This document shows, piece after piece, positions 67 through 27,068 of a DNA stretch of 27,068 bases. Source of the stretch: a virus. A model generated the notes under the pieces. The model saw only the letters and a program-made list of their open reading frames with translations, made no database searches and was not told the origin of the DNA. The translations under genes and the position numbers were made by a program. The stretch spans positions 1-27,068 of the IMG/VR virus record IMGVR_UViG_3300006793_000217. One strand, written 5' to 3'. Every line of letters begins with the position of its first letter. Positions within the stretch are counted from its first letter, which is position 1.

Positions 67-291
67 ATGGAGATCTGGCTTTCTTTGGACAAGGATGTTA
101 TCGTAAGTAATGCCCTGAAGGGTTGCATAGAGGGAATCCTTGCCAATGCACCGTTGCATAACATGGACAATCCCCATATGCAAGAAACTTACGCTACAAT
201 TGCATTAAACATGGCTGAAGTCTTCCTTGCAGAGATTGCAAAGAGGCGAAACGAACTTGTCACGGAGAAACCCAATGAAGACGATTCTTGA
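67..291 (+). CDS. Small protein of unknown function, possibly 5'-truncated
   Basis: I do not recognise this 74-aa protein. It is acidic at the C-terminus and predicted mostly helical, with no transmembrane segment or Cys motif. The ATG at 67 is preceded by GGAAGG at 51-56, a 10-nt spacing. The reading frame is also open from base 1, so the true start may lie outside the window and this could be the 3' end of a longer gene. Its 3' end overlaps the next gene by 17 bp, which suggests translational coupling with the small membrane-protein genes that follow. Confidence 0.55.
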   Translation: MEIWLSLDKDVIVSNALKGCIEGILANAPLHNMDNPHMQETYATIALNMAEVFLAEIAKRRNELVTEKPNEDDS

Positions 292-499
292 TAACATCAA
301 AAGTAAGTTCTCGGACTGGTTGGCATCTGCTGACTCCAAGAGATTAGTAGCGACTGTGCTCACAGCAGTAGTGGTCACTGTAGGTACGTTCAACAATTGG
401 TTAACCGAGGACCAAGCACAGAACATTGCGGGTCTTGTGATCGCAGCAATCCTAGGTGACAGTTACCGTCCCATGAACCCTTCCAAACTCGAGGGTTGA
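275..499 (+). CDS. Small membrane protein, holin-like
   Basis: This 74-aa protein has a hydrophobic segment at about residues 24-39 and a second, weaker one at about 49-60, separated by a short polar turn (NWLTEDQAQ). A charged N-terminus and a short polar C-terminal tail complete it. This two-helix layout, with the second helix read as IAGLVIAAILG, resembles small phage holin-like proteins, but a lysis role is inferred only from topology; no endolysin gene is adjacent. The ATG at 275 is chosen over an upstream in-frame start because CACGGAG ends 7 nt before it. It overlaps the upstream gene and is followed within 3 nt by the next. Confidence 0.6.
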   Translation: MKTILDNIKSKFSDWLASADSKRLVATVLTAVVVTVGTFNNWLTEDQAQNIAGLVIAAILGDSYRPMNPSKLEG

Positions 500-1470: not shown

Positions 1471-1747
1471 AGATGAGTGGGAAGATCTTCCTGCATTTGA
1501 ATTCACTGATGAAAGACTCGGGGAGCGTGTAGACCATCCTAAACACTACTCCAGAGGATCAATAGAGACGATCCAAGCCATCATGGGTTTAGATCTCGAC
1601 CCGTGCGAGGGCAATGTCTTAAAATATGTATCGAGGCATCGAGATAAGAATGGGATCGAGGATCTTCACAAAGCGAAGAAGTATCTTGACCTTATGATAG
1701 AAAATTACGGAGCATGGTATGGGTCTTCTGGATCAAATAAAAGATAA
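1460..1747 (+). CDS. DUF3310-like phage protein
   Basis: The 95-aa product carries the hallmark pattern of the DUF3310 phage family: VDHPKHY near the N-terminus, a conserved helical segment with GNVLKYVSRHRDK, then EDLHKAKKYLDLMI. The family is common in phage genomes and sometimes labelled a nucleotide-kinase-like protein, but its function is unproven. The start is uncertain: ATG 1460 overlaps the nuclease end by 11 nt, while ATG 1448 and TTG 1436 are in frame upstream. The 3' end overlaps the terminase start by 29 nt, so the two are probably co-translated. Confidence 0.82.
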   Translation: MSNRDEWEDLPAFEFTDERLGERVDHPKHYSRGSIETIQAIMGLDLDPCEGNVLKYVSRHRDKNGIEDLHKAKKYLDLMIENYGAWYGSSGSNKR

Positions 1748-3227
1748 AGACACAGTATTCCATGGTTTACGCCCCAAATGGACTGCTTACATCCCTCATG
1801 ATCCGACAGCCAAACAATTAGCGTATTTGATGCTTCCTCATCGAGAAGCTTTTTACGGGGGGGCAGCGGGGGGTGGCAAATCGGACGCTTTGCTCATGGG
1901 AGCTCTACAATACGTCGACGTGCCCGGCTACGCAGCCATGATCTTCCGAAAAACCCTTTCTGACCTAAAACAACCCGGCGCCCTACTCGACCGAGCCCAT
2001 GCTTGGCTATCAAATACCCCTGCCAAATGGAATGCTGGCGAGCACACCTATTACTTCCCCACGTACGACAGCAATGGGAACCCCGCAGAGCCCTCCAAAA
2101 TGACGTTTGGCTACATTGGGAAGACTGACGCCTACACACGCTATCAGGGCATAGAACTGCAGTACTGTGCGTTTGACGAGCTCACACAGCACTGGGAAGA
2201 CGATTATCTCTACCTTTTCTCCAGAATTAGGCGTAATCGGTGTCCTGAACACGGAAATGACCGAGATCCGACCTGTAAGGACTGCGATTTACGTTCCTCA
2301 GTGCCAATCAGGATGAGATCTGCCTCCAACCCCGGTGGCGTAGGTCACCAATGGGTTCGTGATCGATTCGACATTGGTCCATCTCCCGATCCAGACGATC
2401 CCACCAAAGAACGCTATGTAGGCAGGCATCCTGACCGACCCTACATCCCTGCATACATTTCAGACAACCCTTTCCTCGATCAAGACGAGTACAACATCGG
2501 TCTAGACCAACTCGACCCTGTTACTCGAGCCCAATTACAGGCAGGAGACTGGGGAGTCAGTGCAGATTCTCGATTTAACCGAGATTGGGCGAGATATTAC
2601 AGTATTCGAGGACCAAATCTCTGTATGGGTAAGGATGGAAAGGGCGAAGCTCATCCTATCGACTCCCTCCAGAAAATATTTGCAACAATAGATCCTGCTG
2701 CCTCGTCGAGGGAGGGACCGGGGGATAAGGATATTTGGCGTAAGCAAGCCAGTTATACCGTGATCTCTACCTTTGGTTTGACCCAAGACTACAATCTTGT
2801 CTGGCTCGACATGCGTAGATTCCGTAAAGAGATCCCTGACATTCTCCAAGAAGTTAGGAATGTGTACAAAAAGTGGCAACCCCAGTACTTTGTCTGCGAA
2901 TCTTCAGGTCTTGGTAAGGGGGCATACCAAATGCTTCTAAAATGTGGGCTCCCCGTTAAACCTGTACACCCACACTACGATAAACTTGTCCGTGCAACGG
3001 ATGCCATGAATCGTATGCAGCAGGGCAAGATCTGGTTACCTCAAACTGCAGGTTGGCTAGGGGATTGTGAGAAAGAGCTATTCACATGGACTGCTCACCC
3101 ACAACAAAGTGATGATATTATTGACACTTTAGCCTATGCTGCCAAAGAAGTTAGTTGGGAAGCTTCGCATGAGGAGAGAAGTATGGTCGAACTGTACTCC
3201 ATAAACGATCTCCCTTCCGTCTTCTAG
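1719..3227 (+). CDS. terL: Terminase large subunit (packaging ATPase/nuclease)
   Basis: The 502-aa protein is the DNA-packaging motor. The N-terminal ATPase has a Walker A motif GGAAGGGKS (residues 47-55) and a Walker B strand ending AFDE (Asp153, Glu154). The coupling-type motif SASNPGG is at 201-207. The C-terminal RNase-H-like nuclease shows ATIDPA (Asp325), an acidic residue in FVCESSG (Glu394) and SDDIIDTLAYA (Asp465/466/469). Length is typical. Between Walker B and SASNPGG lies a C-x2-H-x7-C-x2-C cluster (Cys175, His178, Cys186, Cys189) that could bind zinc. The ATG at 1719 has CGGAG 7 nt upstream. Its stop codon overlaps the convergent gene's stop in a shared CTAG. No small terminase is recognised in the window. 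Confidence 0.95.
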   Translation: MGLLDQIKDKDTVFHGLRPKWTAYIPHDPTAKQLAYLMLPHREAFYGGAAGGGKSDALLMGALQYVDVPGYAAMIFRKTLSDLKQPGALLDRAHAWLSNTPAKWNAGEHTYYFPTYDSNGNPAEPSKMTFGYIGKTDAYTRYQGIELQYCAFDELTQHWEDDYLYLFSRIRRNRCPEHGNDRDPTCKDCDLRSSVPIRMRSASNPGGVGHQWVRDRFDIGPSPDPDDPTKERYVGRHPDRPYIPAYISDNPFLDQDEYNIGLDQLDPVTRAQLQAGDWGVSADSRFNRDWARYYSIRGPNLCMGKDGKGEAHPIDSLQKIFATIDPAASSREGPGDKDIWRKQASYTVISTFGLTQDYNLVWLDMRRFRKEIPDILQEVRNVYKKWQPQYFVCESSGLGKGAYQMLLKCGLPVKPVHPHYDKLVRATDAMNRMQQGKIWLPQTAGWLGDCEKELFTWTAHPQQSDDIIDTLAYAAKEVSWEASHEERSMVELYSINDLPSVF

Positions 3228-3499
3228 TCATCATAAATTGTCGTGATAGCTGGTTTATCTTGACCACAGTTACATTTAACAGCCCGCACTAGCTTAACAA
3301 TTTCTTCTGGACCATGGTCGTAGAAGTTCTGCACCATCATAACTGCTTGATTAGCCATTTGCGTATTTGCATTTGCTTGAGATGTGGTTATCGCTATTTG
3401 ATTTTCCACTTTCTGAACTCGATATTCCCCAAGCCAGATGGATGCAGCTAAAACTAAAACTAGGATGAAGTTTAAAGCATTCTTCAACTTATCTTTCAT
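3224..3499 (-). CDS. Small membrane-anchored protein, last gene of minus-strand cassette
   Basis: This 91-aa protein has an N-terminal membrane helix (about residues 9-25, ALNFILVLVLAASIWLG), then a polar alanine/glutamine-rich helical stretch and a C-terminal region with a CNC motif. The layout fits an N-in membrane protein with an extended soluble or periplasmic domain. This is spanin-like only in outline, and I do not claim that function. Its ATG begins one base after the phosphoesterase stop on the same strand, so the two are co-translated. It converges on terL, sharing a CTAG. Confidence 0.6.
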   Translation of the reverse strand: MKDKLKNALNFILVLVLAASIWLGEYRVQKVENQIAITTSQANANTQMANQAVMMVQNFYDHGPEEIVKLVRAVKCNCGQDKPAITTIYDD

Positions 3500-3500
3500 A

Positions 3501-4403
3501 TCACCGTGCCTCTATAATCTCGTACTGGATACCTTTCTGCATAGCGTCAGAGGTGTCCTGAAAGAACAACCTCAGCCAGTATGCACCGATGGGCTTTGGT
3601 GGGGCTTCTCGCTCCACATGCCACCCATCAAAGCCATCCTTAAATTCCTCTTTGTAAGTAGGAATACAGATGTGAGTTTGAACGTCGTGATATGTTTTGT
3701 TGCGACCTAATCTTAATCTTACCAGATCGAGCTTCCATGACTCATGGATATGTCCACTAATTACGATATGGGGGTCGGGAAGATACACTGCCTTCCTATT
3801 TGTTTTGATTACGCCCTTGGTCACAGGACCGCCCCCGCCCGCACCATGGCTGTAGTGGAGTATCAAGGTTCGACCTACAGTCTTTTTACCTTTATCATGA
3901 AGTGCGAATCGAATAAAGCCCGAGTACCCACCGCTATGTATTTTGTAGCCAGTACGGAATCTCAGCTGTTCTGTCATTCGTTCAATGAGATCCGTTTCCT
4001 GCCTTTTCAGGATGTTGGCTTCGTGGTTACCTCGAGCAATCATGATTATCTGGTCAGCATAAGGCTCAAAGAAATCGCAGGAGGTGTTCACAAGAGCATC
4101 TAGGTACTCAGGAACCTGATGTTCTGGGCGAAGATCAGCCTTGTTGGACCGGGGGTCATATTTGCCCTGCATTGCGCAAAACCAGTCGCCGCAGTCAATT
4201 ATTCCAGCCTGCCTCTCCCGAGCCTGTTTAAGATGTTTTATTTGCATCTCATGATTGCTCTTGGGGTTGTCCCAATGCCTATCAGAAGTTAGTAGAAACC
4301 ATTGCTCCCACTTAGCTGGTGTAGGCTTCGCCTGCATGATGACAGAGAAAACATTTCGATTTAATTTTGCTACGTGATAGTTCGGATCAAATTTTTTAGG
4401 CAA
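3501..4403 (-). CDS. Calcineurin-like metallophosphoesterase
   Basis: The 300-aa protein has the full set of metal-ligand motifs of the calcineurin-like phosphoesterase superfamily in order: a D-x-H variant in TSDRHWDN (Asp41, His43), CGDW (Asp73), ARGNHE (Asn126, His127), LHYSHG (His183/His186) and SGHIHES (His218, His220). It should be a two-metal hydrolase acting on a phosphomonoester or diester; the substrate cannot be read from sequence. The start is TTG at 4403, supported by AAGGAG 6 nt upstream that overlaps the preceding gene's stop. It is the middle gene of a minus-strand operon between a carbohydrate-binding-like structural protein and a membrane protein. It could process nucleic acid, nucleotides or a surface phosphate group. 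Confidence 0.88.
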   Translation of the reverse strand: MPKKFDPNYHVAKLNRNVFSVIMQAKPTPAKWEQWFLLTSDRHWDNPKSNHEMQIKHLKQARERQAGIIDCGDWFCAMQGKYDPRSNKADLRPEHQVPEYLDALVNTSCDFFEPYADQIIMIARGNHEANILKRQETDLIERMTEQLRFRTGYKIHSGGYSGFIRFALHDKGKKTVGRTLILHYSHGAGGGGPVTKGVIKTNRKAVYLPDPHIVISGHIHESWKLDLVRLRLGRNKTYHDVQTHICIPTYKEEFKDGFDGWHVEREAPPKPIGAYWLRLFFQDTSDAMQKGIQYEIIEAR

Positions 4404-4413
4404 CGGAGACTCC

Positions 4414-5751
4414 TTAATCAGAGGCTAGAGAATCTGCAATAGAGGGACTCGCTGCAGAAGGAAGTTGAATTCCGAGTCCCTTTCTGAATACAGTTTGAAA
4501 TTTTCCTGCATCGCTGTTACTAACGGTGTAGCTGAAAGTATCATCTTTTCTAAATACTCCAGCCCCCATGATAACAACTGCATTAACTCCCCCATGATAC
4601 ACTACAGGTCCGAATTGGAGCTCATCAATATATACAGTTTTTCCTGTAGTCAATCCTCCTGCGAGGGTGATAGATATTGCAAAATCGGAAGGAATTACAG
4701 TTGGAATGTTTATATACATGTGTTTCAGAGTCCAACTAGTAGTAGAAGATAGGGTAGAAGCATTCATTGTGACTTTTTCCGAAGAACTGGCAGTAAACCC
4801 AGTCCCTATGAATTTAACTTCTAGCGTCCCTGCTCCAATCCCAGATTCTGCTTTGACATAGAAGGCTAGGCAATATCGTCGATACCGCTCTATAGATCCT
4901 GCAACTAAAGCTTGGGTGTAGTCCCACTCCTTAGATCCATCCCCCACGAAGGACATGGCGTACGTACCTTTGTACGGTGATGCACTCCTAGCAGCAGCAT
5001 CATCATTCTTTACCCATGTACCCACTGTAGACGCATCCGTCCAAGTTTCAAAATCTGAATTTGTTAAATGTGATGTTGTATTTAATTTCAGCGGATTGAG
5101 ACTAGGACCTGATCCACTTCCTGAGACTTCAGCAGAGTAACCTTCACTACCAATTGTCCCACCCCATTCAAAAGATTCATTATTTTCTGTGATCTCTGAG
5201 ACTACTGAATCTGTGACGCAGGCAATTGTCAAAGAATCTGAAGTGGGTCCCATTTCACTAGTGACCCCATTGTATGCTTCGTAAGCTATAGAACCGATTG
5301 TAGGAGAGTTATATCCATCCAGAATTGAGTCTAGTAAGACAGTCCCTGCAGTAGAGTTTGTCTTACTTTCTGTAACAGAGCTAACAGTTATTACATTTCT
5401 AAGTATGGACTGTGAAGTAGCATTCATATCATTGATAATCTCAATGAGTGTCCCTTCCCACCCAGCTGTCGTAGTAAAATGGTCTAAAACTAGGTCATCA
5501 TTATTTAATACTGAATCTATCTTAGCTGTCAAAGAAGCGATCCATCCAACGGTTGCATTTTTAAAACCGTCGAAGATTATGGTATTATCACTATAGAGAG
5601 CTATGGGAGCACTGTTGGCTTGCATCTCAGTTTCGATCTGACTTCGGTCAGTTTCTAAATCTGAAACAATTGTCACAAAGTCATTTATTCGTTGAACATA
5701 TTCACCAATTACTTCAAAAAGGTTGGTATACTGGCTGGCTGTAAGTCCCAT
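4414..5751 (-). CDS. Predicted virion surface protein with CBM-like beta-sandwich
   Basis: The 445-aa protein has a helical/coiled N-terminal part (about residues 1-120), a Ser/Thr-rich middle, and at about residues 229-388 a jelly-roll pattern resembling carbohydrate-binding module 4/9-type domains: TNSDFETW, then a YKGTYAMSF strand, YRRYCLAFYVKA and a YIDELQFGP closing strand. Such domains occur in phage fibres and decoration proteins that touch glycans. The start is chosen at ATG 5751, with GGAA about 9 nt upstream; a TTG at 5802 would add 17 residues but falls inside the inverted repeat. It is the first gene of the minus-strand cassette and is transcribed away from the head operon. Confidence 0.6.
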   Translation of the reverse strand: MGLTASQYTNLFEVIGEYVQRINDFVTIVSDLETDRSQIETEMQANSAPIALYSDNTIIFDGFKNATVGWIASLTAKIDSVLNNDDLVLDHFTTTAGWEGTLIEIINDMNATSQSILRNVITVSSVTESKTNSTAGTVLLDSILDGYNSPTIGSIAYEAYNGVTSEMGPTSDSLTIACVTDSVVSEITENNESFEWGGTIGSEGYSAEVSGSGSGPSLNPLKLNTTSHLTNSDFETWTDASTVGTWVKNDDAAARSASPYKGTYAMSFVGDGSKEWDYTQALVAGSIERYRRYCLAFYVKAESGIGAGTLEVKFIGTGFTASSSEKVTMNASTLSSTTSWTLKHMYINIPTVIPSDFAISITLAGGLTTGKTVYIDELQFGPVVYHGGVNAVVIMGAGVFRKDDTFSYTVSNSDAGKFQTVFRKGLGIQLPSAASPSIADSLASD

Positions 5752-5791
5752 TGTATTGAGTTCCGTTATTTGGGTTGTCTTTAATAATGAT

Positions 5792-5819
5792 TTTGATAAC
5801 AAAATAATTTGTTATCAAA
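5792..5819. promoter_or_regulatory. Perfect 12-bp inverted repeat, likely operator or hairpin
   Basis: TTTGATAACAAA (5792-5803) and its exact complement TTTGTTATCAAA (5808-5819) are separated by ATAA. The element lies in the divergent region between the minus-strand cassette and the head operon, and its right arm overlaps the proposed -35 hexamer of the head promoter. The symmetry fits a dimeric DNA-binding protein; a hairpin in the minus transcript leader is the alternative. Confidence 0.6.
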
Positions 5820-5837
5820 CGAAGATTCATATATTAT
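5809..5837 (+). promoter_or_regulatory. Predicted sigma70-type promoter for head operon
   Basis: TTGTTA (5809-5814) and TATTAT (5832-5837) are separated by 17 nt, upstream of the head-operon start at 5886. The -35 lies within the inverted repeat, so occupancy there would block transcription. A GAGG ribosome-binding site is at 5871-5874. The surrounding DNA is very AT-rich, so a chance match is possible. Confidence 0.4.
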
Positions 5838-5885
5838 ATTATAAGAATACCTGTAGAATGTATTTTATACGAGGTAGATATTTTA

Positions 5886-7175
5886 ATGCGTTTTAAAAAA
5901 CCAATCGTCACTACTGGTGTTTATACCATACCGGGCGATAAACCACGAAAAGTAAAAATTGATAGTCAACGTCTTTCGCACTGGGAAACCCAGTTCAATA
6001 AAATGAAAGACGCTGGTGTATCGGTTCCTGCCCCTTGGAACCACAGCGAGAAGGCGATGCCAATGTCTTCTGGTGATGATGGGACTTTACCACGCAGTGA
6101 TATGAATGCTGGGTGGTGGGAAAACCTTTGGGTAGAGGACGGAACTTTGTGGGGAGAATTAGAAGTTCCCCAAAGTGAAGATGCTGTCAAAATTGGTAAG
6201 AACGTAAAAGAAACCTCTATTTATGTCAGACCTGACTTTAAAGATGGATCTGGTAATGAATGGAAGGATTCTTTAATGCACATTGCATTAGTTACGCATC
6301 CCATAGAGAATGGGCAAGGTAACTTTATGCCAGTTGGAGATGAGGCAGGATTGGCTCTCTCTATGTCACATTTAACGGAGCCACTTGAAATGGCATCACC
6401 AGAAAAAGCTGAAGAACAACTTAATGCCAACCCTGTTGGTCTTAAGCCTGAACGTGAGAACTCTGCGAACGGAGTTCCCGCTTTGTTGGATGCCCTCAGA
6501 GCAGTCGCAATTGACTTACCTGAAGATACCAACGATACTAATTTTACGGAAAGACTTTTGGTTGCTTTACGTCAGAAGAAAGCTTCTGAACATCCAGAAG
6601 AGAAATCTGTTTCACAACCACCGGAGGGCGCAAAGGAACAACCTGCGCCAGTTGCTATGTCACAAAAAAGTGAAGAAAACGTAGAGGCAACCACCGATGA
6701 TACGCAATTGGAAGAGGTAGTAATGTCTCATCCTAAATTCCAAGCTGCCCAGAATACCGTCAAATTTTTGATGGGTCATATTGGGAATCAGCACAAGGAA
6801 CAACTTGCTGTTCGTCGTGATAGTCTCATTAAAGAAGGAAAAATTACTGAAGAATATGCTGGGCAACATTTAAATCCATCGATTGATGGGTTCCAGATGT
6901 CCTTCGGTGATGATGGAAGCGTTGCAGAATGCGCAGCAGCCAAAATTATGGATGCTTTAGAAGCTGCAACGTCCTTAACTACTAATATCTTGGGGGGATC
7001 AAGTTCTAACCAAGACCTTAACAAACTCGCTTTGGCTATGTCGCAGTCGGGTGTTACTGGACTTCCAGTAGGGTTAAACCTACAAGAAGAAGCAAATCCT
7101 TCAGTTGGGGATGAAACTTCTCCTGATGATGTTGCTTTGGAATTCCTAAAAAACACCGGACATGTAAAAAGCTAA
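5886..7175 (+). CDS. Capsid maturation protease fused to scaffold-like domain
   Basis: The 429-aa protein has an N-terminal half (about residues 1-150) resembling Mu gpI-like prohead proteases. Features include APWNHS (His53), DMNAGWWENLWVEDGTLWGELEVP-type strands, ETSI (candidate Ser111) and HIALVTHP (His132/His138). The C-terminal half is charged, Glu/Gln-rich and predicted helical (about 150-429), as expected for a scaffold that fills the procapsid and is then cleaved. It directly precedes the decoration and capsid genes, the usual position for a protease/scaffold. The catalytic assignment is inferred from motif position rather than alignment. Confidence 0.72.
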   Translation: MRFKKPIVTTGVYTIPGDKPRKVKIDSQRLSHWETQFNKMKDAGVSVPAPWNHSEKAMPMSSGDDGTLPRSDMNAGWWENLWVEDGTLWGELEVPQSEDAVKIGKNVKETSIYVRPDFKDGSGNEWKDSLMHIALVTHPIENGQGNFMPVGDEAGLALSMSHLTEPLEMASPEKAEEQLNANPVGLKPERENSANGVPALLDALRAVAIDLPEDTNDTNFTERLLVALRQKKASEHPEEKSVSQPPEGAKEQPAPVAMSQKSEENVEATTDDTQLEEVVMSHPKFQAAQNTVKFLMGHIGNQHKEQLAVRRDSLIKEGKITEEYAGQHLNPSIDGFQMSFGDDGSVAECAAAKIMDALEAATSLTTNILGGSSSNQDLNKLALAMSQSGVTGLPVGLNLQEEANPSVGDETSPDDVALEFLKNTGHVKS

Positions 7176-7204: not shown

Positions 7205-8029
7205 ATGTCTTTCGAATTCACAGGAGCGTTTGGACTCCCTTCTGCACAATCCGCACTAGAAACAAGTGAAAATGTTTTCTGGTGGGGTCGTTTTGAGCAG
7301 GAAGCGTTCATCGGTTCTATTATTGATGGGTCTGCACGAGATGCAGGCAATACAGGCTACACAGATGTTTTACGTCCGGGCTTGTTACTAGGTCGCATTA
7401 CTGCCAGCGGTAAGCTGAAGGAATGGAACCCAGCAGCAACAGACGGATCACAAAATGTTTATGGAGTACTCGGATACTCACAAAAAATGTCTCGACTCGG
7501 TGCGAATGCGGATCGTTGGTTGGGATGGGTTTATACTTGGGGATTCCTCAAGGGTGACCGAGTTCTAGTGCCCGGCAGTACTAACTTCGGGCTTTCTGGC
7601 AACGCAAACGAACACTTGATTCGTACGCAGCTAGATAAACGGTTTACTTTTTCAGATCAATTGGAAGGTAGTAATTTTGGCGGATACCGCAACGTAATCG
7701 CTAAGACAGCTGACTACAGCGTAACTGAAGGCGACCATGACACCATGTTCACGAACACTGGTGCTTCAGGTGCAGTTAATTTTACGCTGGATGCGGATGG
7801 GCACACTAAGAAAGGCTTACGTTATGGTTTTTACGTAACTGCGGATCAGAATGTGACAATCACCAGCGGTACTTCTGACAAAATGATTACATTTAATGAA
7901 GCTGACGCTGACAGTGTCGCTTTCAGTACTTCCAGCCAAAAAATTGGCGGGTTTATTGAAATCTATAGCGATGGTGCTGCGTGGCTTGTTGTTCATCACG
8001 GTGCTAATACCCTTACGGTAGTAGACTGA
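7205..8029 (+). CDS. Head decoration protein (lambda gpD-like) with extra beta domain
   Basis: The 274-aa protein contains a gpD-type core (about residues 50-140): LRPGLLLGRITASGKLKEWN followed by NVYGVLGY and a strand around GDRVLVPG. This fold trimerises on the capsid surface. A second beta-rich domain (about 165-274), with ADYSVTEGDHDTMFTNTGASGAVNFTL, resembles a module found in phage head fibres and tail fibres. The usual family length is near 110-130 residues, so this is about twice as long. It lies between the protease/scaffold and the major capsid gene, the lambda arrangement. The start has AAGAGG 5 nt upstream. Confidence 0.75.
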   Translation: MSFEFTGAFGLPSAQSALETSENVFWWGRFEQEAFIGSIIDGSARDAGNTGYTDVLRPGLLLGRITASGKLKEWNPAATDGSQNVYGVLGYSQKMSRLGANADRWLGWVYTWGFLKGDRVLVPGSTNFGLSGNANEHLIRTQLDKRFTFSDQLEGSNFGGYRNVIAKTADYSVTEGDHDTMFTNTGASGAVNFTLDADGHTKKGLRYGFYVTADQNVTITSGTSDKMITFNEADADSVAFSTSSQKIGGFIEIYSDGAAWLVVHHGANTLTVVD

Positions 8030-8050
8030 TTTAACTAGGAGAATTTAGAT

Positions 8051-9208
8051 ATGGCTGGTGAAATCACCCTCCAACAGTTGATGCAGACTCCCGTAATCAC
8101 ACGGGTAGTCTCCCGCATCAAAACCCCGATGACATTATTCCAAAGTTTCTTTGGGATGTTACCGGGACAAGCTTCGACGCAAAATGTGTCTGGTCGATAC
8201 CTCGGTTGGGACATTTTTGATAAGACTCGATTGATTGCTGAAGGTCGTGCTCCCGGTACGGGTCCAGCGACTGTACAGCGTAAAGCAGTCGGTCATGTCA
8301 GTGCTGTGGCTTATCGTGCTCACGAAAAGATGACTCTTCTTCACGAAGAAATTTTCCGAACTCGACCTTTGGGTCAACAGTTTGGTGTCGTCGATGTTAA
8401 TGGGCAAAACTATATCAATCGTCAGTTAGAATACTTAACGCAGCGATTCCGCAACTCCCGTGAATTTATGATCTCACGCATGTTGCGAGGTGGCTTCGGT
8501 GTATTGCAAACTGGTGAGACATGGGTTCCTGTAGAGAAGGGTGCTGGTACTTTCGATATCGATTACAGTATGCCTGCTGAACACCTATCTCAACTTGATA
8601 TGGGTACTGGTTCCGACATCATTGATGCTGGATGGCAAACTGCCTCCACGAACGTGATCAAGCATGTTTTGAATATGAATCGTGCATTTGAACGACTACA
8701 CGGTCGTCCATTGCGTCATATTTGGATTAATAGCACTACGTTCGAAATGCTTCTCAATAACACTAGCCTGCAGAACACTGCTGGTACAGCATATCGAATC
8801 TTCGATTCGTTGACTGCTCGTCAGCAATCCTCTGCAGAGGGAATTCCCGATAGTGGTTTTGACGTTGTATTCCGTGGGCTCCCACTTCAAACATTCCACA
8901 TCTACGATGGTGTCTTGAATGTAAATCAATCAGTTGACAGTGATACTGCTGCTAATAGTAGCATGTTTATCCCTGACAACTATGCGATTTTCATGCCAGA
9001 TCCAAGTGCAGATTGGGTTGGATACATCAACTCTTCCGAGTTCGTGAAAGAAAATATCATGGACAACGGTAAGCAGGTCTACGGTTTCCACAGTTGGACA
9101 ACCAACACAATTGACCCTGCTGGTGTTGAATTGAAAATGATTGACAACGGTCTTCCAGTCCTCTACGTACCTAAGTCTATTGCTTACGGTAAAGTAGCGA
9201 ACTTCTAA
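8051..9208 (+). CDS. Major capsid protein (lambda gpE family)
   Basis: The 385-aa protein matches the lambda E-type capsid family (Phage_cap_E). It begins with ITLQQLMQTPVITRVVSRI and has the beta-rich ISGRYL-like segment VSGRYLGWDIFDKTRLIAEG. A mid-region carries WINSTTFEMLL, and the end has GKQVYGFHSWTTNTIDPAGV with a C-terminal VPKSIAYGKVANF. The length fits. It follows the decoration protein by 21 nt, with TAGGAG upstream of the ATG, and is followed by a strong terminator, as expected for the most abundant virion protein. Confidence 0.88.
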   Translation: MAGEITLQQLMQTPVITRVVSRIKTPMTLFQSFFGMLPGQASTQNVSGRYLGWDIFDKTRLIAEGRAPGTGPATVQRKAVGHVSAVAYRAHEKMTLLHEEIFRTRPLGQQFGVVDVNGQNYINRQLEYLTQRFRNSREFMISRMLRGGFGVLQTGETWVPVEKGAGTFDIDYSMPAEHLSQLDMGTGSDIIDAGWQTASTNVIKHVLNMNRAFERLHGRPLRHIWINSTTFEMLLNNTSLQNTAGTAYRIFDSLTARQQSSAEGIPDSGFDVVFRGLPLQTFHIYDGVLNVNQSVDSDTAANSSMFIPDNYAIFMPDPSADWVGYINSSEFVKENIMDNGKQVYGFHSWTTNTIDPAGVELKMIDNGLPVLYVPKSIAYGKVANF

Positions 9209-22317: not shown

Positions 22318-23547
22318 ATGGCTACATATAATTCAGTAAAATCATCCGCTAAAGAGGTAAATCCTGATGAGCTATTAGGATCTCCGTTAACTGCTGACTA
22401 CATGCCTAGCGGATATGCAGGCATATTTCTCTTCGCCAGAAATAGACCCCCTTTCAGTCTCACAGTGATTCAGGAAATGCTAGCAGATCCTCGAGTTATA
22501 TTTGGTCTTTGGCTTCTCAAAGGACCCATTCTGGCAAACTCTAGATTTTATGTTGAATGTGAAAACGATGACGTAAAAGATTTTCTAATCAAAAATGTGA
22601 CTCGTTTCTGGAAGAACTCTGCTGCTCGAGCCTTAAAGGCAATTGAGTGGGGATACTCAGCCAGCGAAGTTATGTATCGAGTAGATGAGGGAAAGATTCA
22701 ATTTGACATCATGAAGGACTTGCATTCTCAAGATTGCATGGCTGTTACGCATGATGGTCAACTGGTGGGTTTTACAGTACGCAATGTACCAGACCCGTAT
22801 ACTAAGCAAGGTCGCCACAAGATCTTCTTAGGCATACCCAAGGGATTCTGGCATATACACTGGAGAACTCATCACCCATGGTATGGGTTGAGTAGATTGT
22901 ACGGAGCCCATATCCCGTGGTGGGAGATGTGGTCCGATGGTGGTTATCGAGATGTTCGTCGGTTGTGGTTCCACAAGAATGCATTCGAGGGCGGTACGAT
23001 GTACCATCCTCCGGGGATCACAAGAACGAAGGATGGGTTGGTTATCTCGAACAAAGACCTTGCCAGAGAAATGATCGAAAAGAAGCGTACAGGCGGTACA
23101 CTGACGCTTCCAAATACCATGGGCGCAGACAATGTGAAGAGTTGGGAGTATCATCCTCCTACGTCAAATCAAATCCCTGCGGGGCTGATGGAGTACGGAC
23201 AAAGCCTTAAAGAAGAGCTCTTCGAAGGAATGGGGATTCCCCCCGAGGTATTCCAGAATGCCACCAGCGGATTTGGTGCTGCATCAGGAAGACAGATTCC
23301 TGAAGAAGCATTCTTTTCTATTCTGCAGGAGATGGTTCAATGGTTAATTTCTGACGCAGATAACCAGATCTTCCGTCACTTAGTGAGGATCAACTTCGGT
23401 GAGGTCCCGTACGAAATAATTCCATTTGGACTTACTGGGAAAGCTGAAGAGAGGGAAGCTCAAATTAGAGAAGACAACAGAGCTACTGAAGCAGCACAAG
23501 CTTTTGGTTCTGGACCACAGGCTCCCCCACAACAAGTTCCCGAATAA
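22318..23547 (+). CDS. Portal protein (Mu gp29/DUF935-like)
   Basis: The 409-aa protein shows the Mu-type portal pattern: PFSLTVIQEMLADPRVIFGLWLLKGPI near the N-terminus, AIEWGYSASEVMY, a WHIHWRTHHPWYGLSRLY core, MEYGQSLKEELFEGMGIPPEVF and a C-terminal QEMVQWLISDADNQIFRHLVRINFGE. The length is a little shorter than Mu gp29. The portal forms the dodecameric packaging ring bound by TerL. It has no strong Shine-Dalgarno and starts 3 nt after the chaperone extension. It lies about 19 kb from terL, after the tail genes, which is unusual. Confidence 0.88.
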   Translation: MATYNSVKSSAKEVNPDELLGSPLTADYMPSGYAGIFLFARNRPPFSLTVIQEMLADPRVIFGLWLLKGPILANSRFYVECENDDVKDFLIKNVTRFWKNSAARALKAIEWGYSASEVMYRVDEGKIQFDIMKDLHSQDCMAVTHDGQLVGFTVRNVPDPYTKQGRHKIFLGIPKGFWHIHWRTHHPWYGLSRLYGAHIPWWEMWSDGGYRDVRRLWFHKNAFEGGTMYHPPGITRTKDGLVISNKDLAREMIEKKRTGGTLTLPNTMGADNVKSWEYHPPTSNQIPAGLMEYGQSLKEELFEGMGIPPEVFQNATSGFGAASGRQIPEEAFFSILQEMVQWLISDADNQIFRHLVRINFGEVPYEIIPFGLTGKAEEREAQIREDNRATEAAQAFGSGPQAPPQQVPE

Positions 23548-25946: not shown

Positions 25947-26030
25947 TCAAATGGCTCTTTCAATCAAATACCCTATTATTAACGCTAGAGTACATAGCAA
26001 AGCTCCTTTAATTTGTTCTTTTTTATTCAT
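25947..26030 (-). CDS. 27-aa hydrophobic membrane micro-protein
   Basis: This tiny frame runs from ATG at 26030 to TGA at 25947-25949. It encodes a short basic start (MNKKEQIK) then a single hydrophobic helix (GALLCTLALIIGYLIERAI). Its start overlaps the stop of the zinc-ribbon gene (ATGAATAA), typical of phage coupling. There is only a weak ribosome-binding site. No function is known; chance is possible at this length. Confidence 0.4.
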   Translation of the reverse strand: MNKKEQIKGALLCTLALIIGYLIERAI

Positions 26031-26373
26031 AGGTTTTCTCACAGCCTCCACAAAGTTGAAGTTCTCCTGCAGCTAACAATACTCCACACTTCAAGCATTG
26101 TTTGCCATTAGGTTTATTTTCTAGATTAGACATAAGAGCTCGCTGTTTTTCCTGCTGTCTCTTAAACACCTCAGGATCACAGAATTCCGCTATACGTCTA
26201 TTTGTTTGCATTAACGCTCGTATCAATCTCTTTTCTAGATTGTACGTACTCCAATACTCCCGAACATCTTCTTCAGATATATCTTCCATGACATCAATAT
26301 TGGCAGAACGTAATTCAAACTCTACACATATCTCATCCATGAGGTCGAAGATTGCACTTAATTTATCTTGCAT
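26023..26373 (-). CDS. Zinc-ribbon protein of unknown function
   Basis: The 116-aa protein is helical and charged over residues 1-90 and ends with a zinc-ribbon pair, CLKCGVLL and LCGGCEKTYE. The coiled helical N-terminus and C-terminal Cys4 ribbon suggest a nucleic-acid- or protein-binding regulator. ATG 26373 has AAAGGA 9 nt upstream. It is downstream of the helicase on the same strand, separated by a 205-nt structured gap. No family recognised. Confidence 0.65.
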   Translation of the reverse strand: MQDKLSAIFDLMDEICVEFELRSANIDVMEDISEEDVREYWSTYNLEKRLIRALMQTNRRIAEFCDPEVFKRQQEKQRALMSNLENKPNGKQCLKCGVLLAAGELQLCGGCEKTYE

Positions 26374-26411
26374 AGTTTAGGTTCCTTTAAAAAAGTTACG
26401 TAGTAAAAGTG

Positions 26412-26572
26412 AGCAGTGTTTAATCACCGTACTCAGGGTGAGGACCTTACATGAGTATAAACGAACTAAGGAGGTTCCTCATATAAGGTAACAGGGGTTA
26501 CAAAGCCACTCACTGCTAGGCTCTCCTTGTGGGCGTGACAATCATGAAAAAACTCCCACTATAGGCAAGGAG
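26412..26572 (-). ncRNA. Structured noncoding stretch, possible ncRNA or leader
   Basis: This gap between two minus-strand genes folds by eye into several helices. An outer helix, AGCAGTG (26412-26418) with CACTGCT (26511-26517), encloses three: TCACC/GGTGA (26424-26428/26437-26441), a long helix (26444-26455 with 26478-26489, 12 bp), and GTAAC/GTTAC (26488-26492/26497-26501, which overlaps the long helix by 2 nt). A separate helix pairs 26523-26529 with 26566-26572. In the long helix the single non-Watson-Crick position is a G-U pair only if minus-strand RNA is made, and a C-A mismatch on the plus strand, so minus is favoured. It is not a canonical tRNA. It may be a leader for the zinc-ribbon gene. 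Confidence 0.4.
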
Positions 26573-26578
26573 TGTCCA

Positions 26579-27068
26579 TTACTCTCCCTCCATAAATACT
26601 AAGGTATTCATGCTGCGTGTCATCGCAACATATTTGATATTAAATTCTTGACTAATTTCCCATTCGAGTTTCGCCATGGGGTGGGGCATCTTTTCTGGGT
26701 TAGAAATATACACAGTCTCTGCCTCTAATCCCTTGGCACGATGTACGCTCGATAGAAGCACCTTGGACTTAGGTCCACCCTTTGCGTTATCAGAAAATAG
26801 ATTTTCGATACGATTAACGACATCTTGAACTGTTTCCAATCCTTCCGAGATAGCCTGTATACATAAAGTTCTATCGATAATCATTTCGTACTGAGATTCG
26901 CTGACTCGAGCGTTCAATGCTTTCTTGTCCAACCGAGCCATCTCCTTTACGTGATACTCATGGAGCTTAGTAGTGAAAGCTAAGATATCTGTAGATAGAT
27001 TACCTTTGACTAACTTCTTACAAAGAGCAGCAAGTGATGTACCGATATCCCTACCTTGGATCGTGACC
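26579..27068 (-). CDS. UvrD/Rep-like (SF1) helicase, C-terminal part, runs off the window
   Basis: The frame is open from the window edge to a stop at 26579-26581. Visible conserved motifs are GRDIGTSLAAL near the upstream end, KVLLSSVHRAKGLEAETVYI (motif V region with the H-R-A-K-G-L-E element) and YVAMTRSMNTLVF (motif VI with the catalytic Arg). These are characteristic of UvrD/Rep-type 3'-5' helicases used in replication or repair. The Walker A and motif II region lie beyond the window, so ATP binding cannot be confirmed here. An internal ATG at 26941 is likely not the start. Confidence 0.82.
   Translation of the reverse strand, partial: VTIQGRDIGTSLAALCKKLVKGNLSTDILAFTTKLHEYHVKEMARLDKKALNARVSESQYEMIIDRTLCIQAISEGLETVQDVVNRIENLFSDNAKGGPKSKVLLSSVHRAKGLEAETVYISNPEKMPHPMAKLEWEISQEFNIKYVAMTRSMNTLVFMEGE

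Follow-up and report, generated by a model that had tools for sequence, protein, structure and literature searches.

The window analyzed here, the whole 27,068-nucleotide (nt) stretch at positions 1 to 27,068 of IMG/VR virus record IMGVR_UViG_3300006793_000217, carries a block of three minus-strand genes, designated A, B, and C, between the gene for the terminase large subunit (TerL) and the first gene of the head operon. A preliminary description of this DNA regarded the three genes as a single moron-like module. Comparison with related phages indicates that what stays constant is gene A, next to the first head gene but on the other strand, and that B was probably acquired later, within the window's subclade. 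The moron-like reading is supported only in part, and the block is a composite rather than one three-gene moron. An old, reversed, adhesin-like gene A to which B and C were later added, operating as proposed below, is the explanation that we hold with a little more confidence than doubt.

Gene A is a fixed gene of the lineage. Wider searches found it in 20 public contigs, including one (L001) with the same sequence as the window, and the identity of A to the window protein extended down to 26%. A had the same orientation in all 20 contigs. It was opposite to the neighboring head gene in 19 and, in the contig without a head gene (L013), opposite to TerL. Clustering at 90% placed 20 A sequences in 13 clusters; this set has the window's A, L120 twice, and neither L001 nor L013. 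Contigs retrieved with A contain it by construction, and the test of presence is therefore the set selected with the capsid protein only. This set had 17 loci, two of which (L110 and L117) stop short of the site; the 15 remaining contigs represent about nine lineages. All 15 extend across the upstream boundary of the head operon, and all have A in the opposite orientation. The comparison of relatives that the preliminary description proposed as a check thus divides the module: A is fixed in all relatives, the outcome that the description had named as counting against its reading, and B and C are not. Outside these contigs, tblastn with A from the window, L009, L138, and L142 (E limits of 1e-3, 5, 1, and 1) recovered no homologs in phage records, and the capsid protein had no match in the same records.

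Fourteen capsid-selected contigs span the gap between A and TerL, a count that excludes L046/L116 because that contig ends within A. B was found in 11 of the 14; the three without it were L120, L121, and L122. Because the outgroups (L121/L122, L137/L138, L140, and L142), with A proteins 26 to 33% identical to that of the window, have A without B, it is likely from presence and absence only that B was added later. In a capsid tree that included L140 and L142, the branches were too long to be usable and the possession of B did not fall on one side of a branch (two changes); 16% of bootstrap trees required one change. The first search returned three relatives that match the window in the position and strand of A and B; they lack C, and their TerL and B genes abut. 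Weighing against conservation of the wider arrangement, TerL is about 10 kb from A in L142, which leaves the position next to the head gene as the one constant.

The surroundings of A differ among relatives. L120 (4423-7445) has two tandem diverged copies of A (531 and 471 amino acids [aa]) on the opposite strand and no B, and L137/L138 and L140 have a head-strand gene of about 130 aa between A and TerL. Between A and B, L020 (9396-10019) and L021 (6886-7194) have a small HExxH (HELLH) peptidase-like open reading frame (ORF), preceded by a head-strand ORF; these inserts suggest that the gap behind A takes varied genes. On the other side, the gap from A to the head operon holds a gene for a small basic protein, oriented like the head genes, in L018 (8349-8519), L020 (6859-7119), and L046 (9651-9911). 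Similar frames were seen by eye in L009, L011, and L120 and were not seen in the window or the L002 group. The ends of two outgroup records, read for signs of the host, gave no firm assignment.

The features of the window's locus are as follows.

1719-3227, plus strand: TerL gene, convergent with C (phrog_979, E 1.2e-57)
3224-3499, minus strand: gene C, 91 aa, ATG start; a single hydrophobic helix at the N-terminus and a CxCG segment conserved at the C-terminus
3501-4403, minus strand: gene B, 300 aa, TTG start; predicted calcineurin-like metallophosphoesterase
4414-5751, minus strand: gene A, 445 aa, ATG at 5751; predicted adhesin/fiber-like protein with a helical N-terminus (low confidence), a CBM_4_9/CBM16-like beta-sandwich at about residues 220-395, and a conserved C-terminal segment
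5752-5885, between A and the head operon: divergent intergenic region with putative divergent promoters (GC 0.231)
5792-5819: perfect 12-bp inverted repeat with a 4-nt center, a putative operator or leader hairpin
5886-7175, plus strand: first head-operon gene, divergent from A; "protease/scaffold-like" from position and appearance only
7205-8029, plus strand: head decoration gene (HDPD)
8051-9208, plus strand: major capsid protein E gene, the query used to find relatives
22318-23547: portal gene (phrog_113, E 3.8e-10)

The tight coupling of the three minus-strand genes noted previously was confirmed. The gap between A and B is 10 bases and that between B and C is 1 base. B has an AAGGAG Shine-Dalgarno sequence that overlaps the A stop codon TAA (4416-4414), and the ATG of C (3499) is one base past the B stop codon TGA (3503-3501). 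The stop codons of C (3224-3226, minus strand) and TerL (3225-3227, plus strand) overlap, leaving no space for a terminator between these two genes. Nonsynonymous/synonymous substitution rates (dN/dS), compared for A and B in two pairs of close relatives, were.018/.215 and.048/.338 for A and.026/.306 and.047/.821 for B, and the differences were mostly at third codon positions. Ratios well below 1 show that both frames are translated and under purifying selection. Between the window and L002, identity was 66% for A, 75% for B, 93% for TerL, and 92% for the capsid protein. A longer form of A, starting with TTG at 5802, was rejected because relatives do not support it.

The block was previously thought to hold the place of the portal or protease gene. 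It does lie between TerL and the head genes, but the window does have a portal gene, located about 19 kb from TerL and past tail-type genes. A portal homolog in the L142 record (L146:12572-13870, E 3.2e-63) is likewise distant from TerL. A family search with the product of 5886-7175 yielded no convincing match. Two more minus-strand ORFs are at the right end of the window (26023-26941), one of which resembles by eye the C-terminus of a UvrD-type helicase.

From the sequence, A most likely encodes a virion adhesin or fiber that would have its own divergent promoter. At the 134-nt scale, the intergenic region in front of A is the most AT-rich zone of the window; 20 of 26,933 segments of that length are lower in GC, all starting within 5754-5782. 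Its 12-bp repeat is the only perfect palindrome in the window with arms of at least 10 and a loop of 2 to 14, and when the region was dinucleotide-shuffled 3000 times, a palindrome with 12-bp arms arose in two of the shuffles. In L002, L007, and L008, a shorter repeat bearing a compensating base change occupies this position, and the motif TAAC-N10-GTTA in front of A is also found in L018. Several observations weigh against a dedicated control region. The palindrome is not universal; L009 and L010 have a different repeat, and L011 and L020 have none like it. TAAC-N10-GTTA, weak by itself, is also found inside genes (window 5373, L010, L011, and L020), and promoter-like sites were not in excess (10 versus 8.2 in shuffles). 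Two terminator-like sites on the plus strand were likewise not above shuffles.

The same region bears on an excludon-like form of regulation, in which transcription reading through from TerL to the head genes would be antisense to A, B, and C, and expression of A would be confined to times when the late operon is off. An opposite orientation kept across deep divergence, convergent overlapping stop codons with no terminator, and a palindrome that overlaps the candidate divergent promoters are all consistent with such control. However, the promoter scan was not above chance, the palindrome is not shared by all relatives, and the case is built on sequence, not transcripts. We consider this explanation unlikely, with a small but real chance of being correct.

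Structure prediction for A agreed with the carbohydrate-binding module (CBM)-like fold that the preliminary description had read from the sequence. The main confident part of the model, a block with predicted local distance difference test (pLDDT) values of 69 to 92 over residues 271-410 and lower values before it, is within the beta-sandwich. In the model, the domain at about residues 220-395 matches the fold of CBM families 16 and 4 (the CBM_4_9 jelly-roll) and of phage baseplate/fiber chains, with Z scores of 9.8 to 11.1; the match with the CBM16 structure 2zez had a Z of 11.1 over 120 residues (root mean square deviation, 2.7), and CBM16/CBM4 modules overall had a Z of about 10 to 11. Chains of the phi812 baseplate and of the mycobacteriophage Douge central fiber are also like the A domain in fold (Z of 10.7 and 9.8 for baseplate/fiber chains). 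Compared with CBM proteins, the rest of A, its helical N-terminus and conserved C-terminus, forms a family of its own (best PHROG match, E 0.0015). Fourteen relatives share 22 invariant columns, and 10 of these are within residues 376-432 at the C-terminal end. In a viral structure library, an unnamed entry (A0A516L1K0) aligned with A over its full length (E 8.8e-18, 20% identity).

An adhesin or fiber is the plainest reading of this predicted structure, though an unproven one, and several results count against it. The Pfam match to CBM_4_9 (E 6.7e-5, 23.7 bits) is just under the gathering score of 25.9, and this family was matched at E 0.1 by 2 of 11 A members. The pLDDT of the whole-chain model is 59.6. 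The jelly-roll is a common fold, and MAM domains, GH101 enzymes, and insecticidal proteins also reach Z scores of 9 to 10. Sugar binding, a trait of CBM families, is for A a prediction from this fold, and other jelly-roll proteins resemble the A domain almost as closely. Searches against named virion families gave no convincing match for members of the A family, the best being a baseplate hub (E 0.0015) for 1 of 14 members; a place for A in the virion is thus a prediction.

The preliminary identification of B as a metallophosphoesterase is supported. The metal motifs DxH, GD, GNHE, and GHxH were invariant in 41 of 41 aligned sequences, and the family has a conserved MxGKxDxR-type segment past the GD motif. 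The window protein scored 21.2 bits against the Pfam Metallophos gathering score of 21.5, and 20 of 21 B members matched this family at E 0.01 or better (best, 1.7e-7); NCBIfam models at E 0.01 matched none of the 41 members. The B model was confident (pLDDT, 90.1; predicted template modeling score, 0.90). Among the chains compared, the top fold was DP1, the exonuclease subunit of DNA polymerase D (PolD), with a Z of 18.4 over 233 residues; LpxH had a Z of 15.1 (180 residues) and Mre11 one of 14.5 (205 residues), and the B-subunits of DNA polymerases delta and zeta had Z scores of about 14 to 16. DP1, LpxH, and Mre11 share the metal-site motifs and overall fold with B, with identities to DP1 and LpxH of 12 to 17% in the rows listed. 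The best match in the viral structure library, H9YSH0, is unnamed (32% identity), and two lower-ranked phage entries are named "DNA polymerase II small subunit." An LpxH-like identity was rejected because DP1 scores higher over more residues and a shared fold shows no function; B was filed under neither protein. We lean toward a predicted nucleic-acid or nucleotide phosphodiesterase.

The B family was detected in 368 confirmed IMG/VR stretches by a pattern-based search with E-values relative to the candidates, in 1 of 50,697 phage records, and in one contig of a Rickettsiales metagenome-assembled genome. Neighboring genes were surveyed from the best 80 of the 368 stretches, a sample that leans to close relatives, with 42 representatives (85% clusters of 86 loci). 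ORFs were chosen by length, not by a gene finder, and L030 was left out because ORF picking chose another frame. B was near terminase and portal genes (terminase downstream in L070), directly behind endolysin-type genes of PHROG lysis families in L087, L096, L103, and L061, and near a tyrosine integrase in L029, L034, L035, and L084. Rhodobacteraceae phage LS06-2018-MD07 carries B behind two genes, an annotated endolysin and one for a membrane protein. Among 58 proteins encoded upstream of B, 4 matched Amidase_2, 3 matched DUF5675, which we take to be a lysis-type family and which Pfam calls unknown, and 6 matched Terminase_6C; there were also M15-type matches. This tally names no members and comprises 56 of the 57 proteins picked (L026:7368-8216 was dropped) plus the annotated endolysin of L042 and an M15-like gene of L094, both added for looking like endolysins. 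Such varied neighbors point to no single pathway for B and to that extent weigh against the explanation favored here. Where B follows a lysis-type gene in L087, L096, and L101, collagen-like repeat proteins were seen by eye downstream. In the B tree, the antisense B genes formed one group (support 89/79, below the starred level) within a 12-row set (96/92) that also contains B genes of phages with another terminase type.

Gene C is likely to encode a membrane protein, as previously suggested, on the basis of hydropathy only. Among phages with an antisense B, a small one-helix gene separates B from TerL in the window, L009/L010, L011, L018/L019, and L020/L021 and is missing in L002, L007, L008, and L013. 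Only the C of the window is recognizably in the same family as the gene behind B in phages with the other terminase type, in which TerL, B, C, and portal are all on one strand. C homologs are directly behind B in L022-L025 and L049-L054, and CxCG is invariant in a seven-row alignment. Profile matches identified TerL and portal in L025, where a single small ORF stands between TerL and B. These pairings suggest that C may be a partner of B. The link is not strict: a weaker homolog of C is about 3.8 kb upstream of B in L026 and L027, and none was labeled in L047 or L048. A match of C to the PADLOC "2TM effector" model (E 0.0014, 16.3 bits) was taken as a membrane-helix match, and a defense or antidefense label was rejected for A and B because neither had a PADLOC match. 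L025 also has a Mom-like DNA-modification gene (7495-8250; phrog_1384, E 2.5e-24) directly before TerL.

The neighbors of B in other phages raise the possibility of a lysis module, with B and C, together with A, acting at the end of infection; B would strip a phosphate-containing envelope precursor, and C would be spanin- or holin-like. The endolysin-type genes in front of B, in LS06-2018-MD07 as in the surveyed loci, and the Amidase_2, M15-type, and DUF5675 matches in the upstream tally are in keeping with this, as is a weak match of C to the Rz-like spanin profile phrog_739 (E 0.039). Furthermore, Amidase_2, Peptidase_M15_4, DUF5675, Phage_lysozyme, Peptidase_M23, and SLT had no match in eight records (the window of 27 kb and others of 44 to 62 kb, five from the window's subclade), none of which is rated complete, so that absence is not shown. 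However, the lysis neighbors belong to few clades of the B tree and are not independent, the upstream proteins also include the six Terminase_6C matches, the L002-type relatives lack C, and a holin-like gene is located elsewhere (275-499, plus strand, E 0.049). A lysis module is therefore improbable.

We consider equally improbable a true moron, that is, a recently inserted three-gene lysogenic-conversion cassette, expressed alone, that changes the host surface. Like phage morons, the block is on the opposite strand, possibly with its own promoter region in the AT-rich zone upstream, and B and C behave as accessory genes; B is also found in unrelated phages, near the integrase in four of them. 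Unlike phage morons, it has A fixed across the lineage, which already refutes a recent insertion of A, no terminator space, and no integrase found: the tyrosine integrase family Phage_integrase had no match in the same eight records, with the same limit on completeness. Fourteen control genomes were searched for the same seven families, and each family matched one or more of them. The integrase and endolysin results give no support to lysogenic conversion and leave the lysis reading open. Base composition, another check proposed in the preliminary description, did not reveal foreign DNA (cassette GC of.429 versus.445 for the window), and a foreign insertion was rejected on this basis gene by gene as well (A,.412; B,.466; C,.384). 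An invertible DNA segment was dismissed because inverted pairs within 2800-6400 are at most 19 nt, none convincingly brackets the block, and all 20 contigs have one orientation.

Cyanosiphovirus P-SS2 has ORFs 016-020 on the opposite strand, and its genome report describes reverse promoters as often supporting such ORFs (PMC2784084). Like the block, these are a few opposite-strand genes, there in a siphovirus genome; the resemblance drawn here is one of strand.

The composite block, the explanation favored here, can be described as follows. A would already have been in the opposite orientation before the head operon in the ancestor shared by the phages found here, and would have stayed so; its transcription would start at a promoter of its own within the divergent region, with its AT-rich sequence and palindrome. 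It would be made as a separate unit, with the jelly-roll binding glycans on the host or in the surroundings and the conserved C-terminus attaching or trimerizing the protein. B would have been added behind A only in the window's subclade, from an accessory family found elsewhere near terminase, endolysin, or integrase genes, and C, now variable, would have come with it; the B-C pair is also found just downstream of TerL in unrelated phages. B may be a two-metal phosphodiesterase of the cytoplasm that acts late in infection, its substrate probably being nucleic acid or nucleotides, and C would be its partner, bound to the membrane. A more speculative proposal, which we rate as slightly less probable still than the lysis module or the moron, is that the B family consists of late phosphodiesterases of uncultured phages that form, together with a small membrane protein as partner, a module for lysis or late takeover. 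This module would move among terminase, endolysin, and integrase junctions and, in the window's phages, with none of the six endolysin-type families found, would have docked onto a conserved antisense adhesin gene under a divergent operator.

The analysis tells a conserved, reversed, structural-type gene apart from accessory genes docked behind it. It provides a testable case for why one gene beside a head module keeps to the other strand over long evolutionary time. It also draws attention to a metallophosphoesterase family that is frequent in uncultured phages yet nearly unseen, at the sensitivity used, in the phage records searched. The recurring terminase, endolysin, and integrase neighbors of B make its role a concrete question for the bench.

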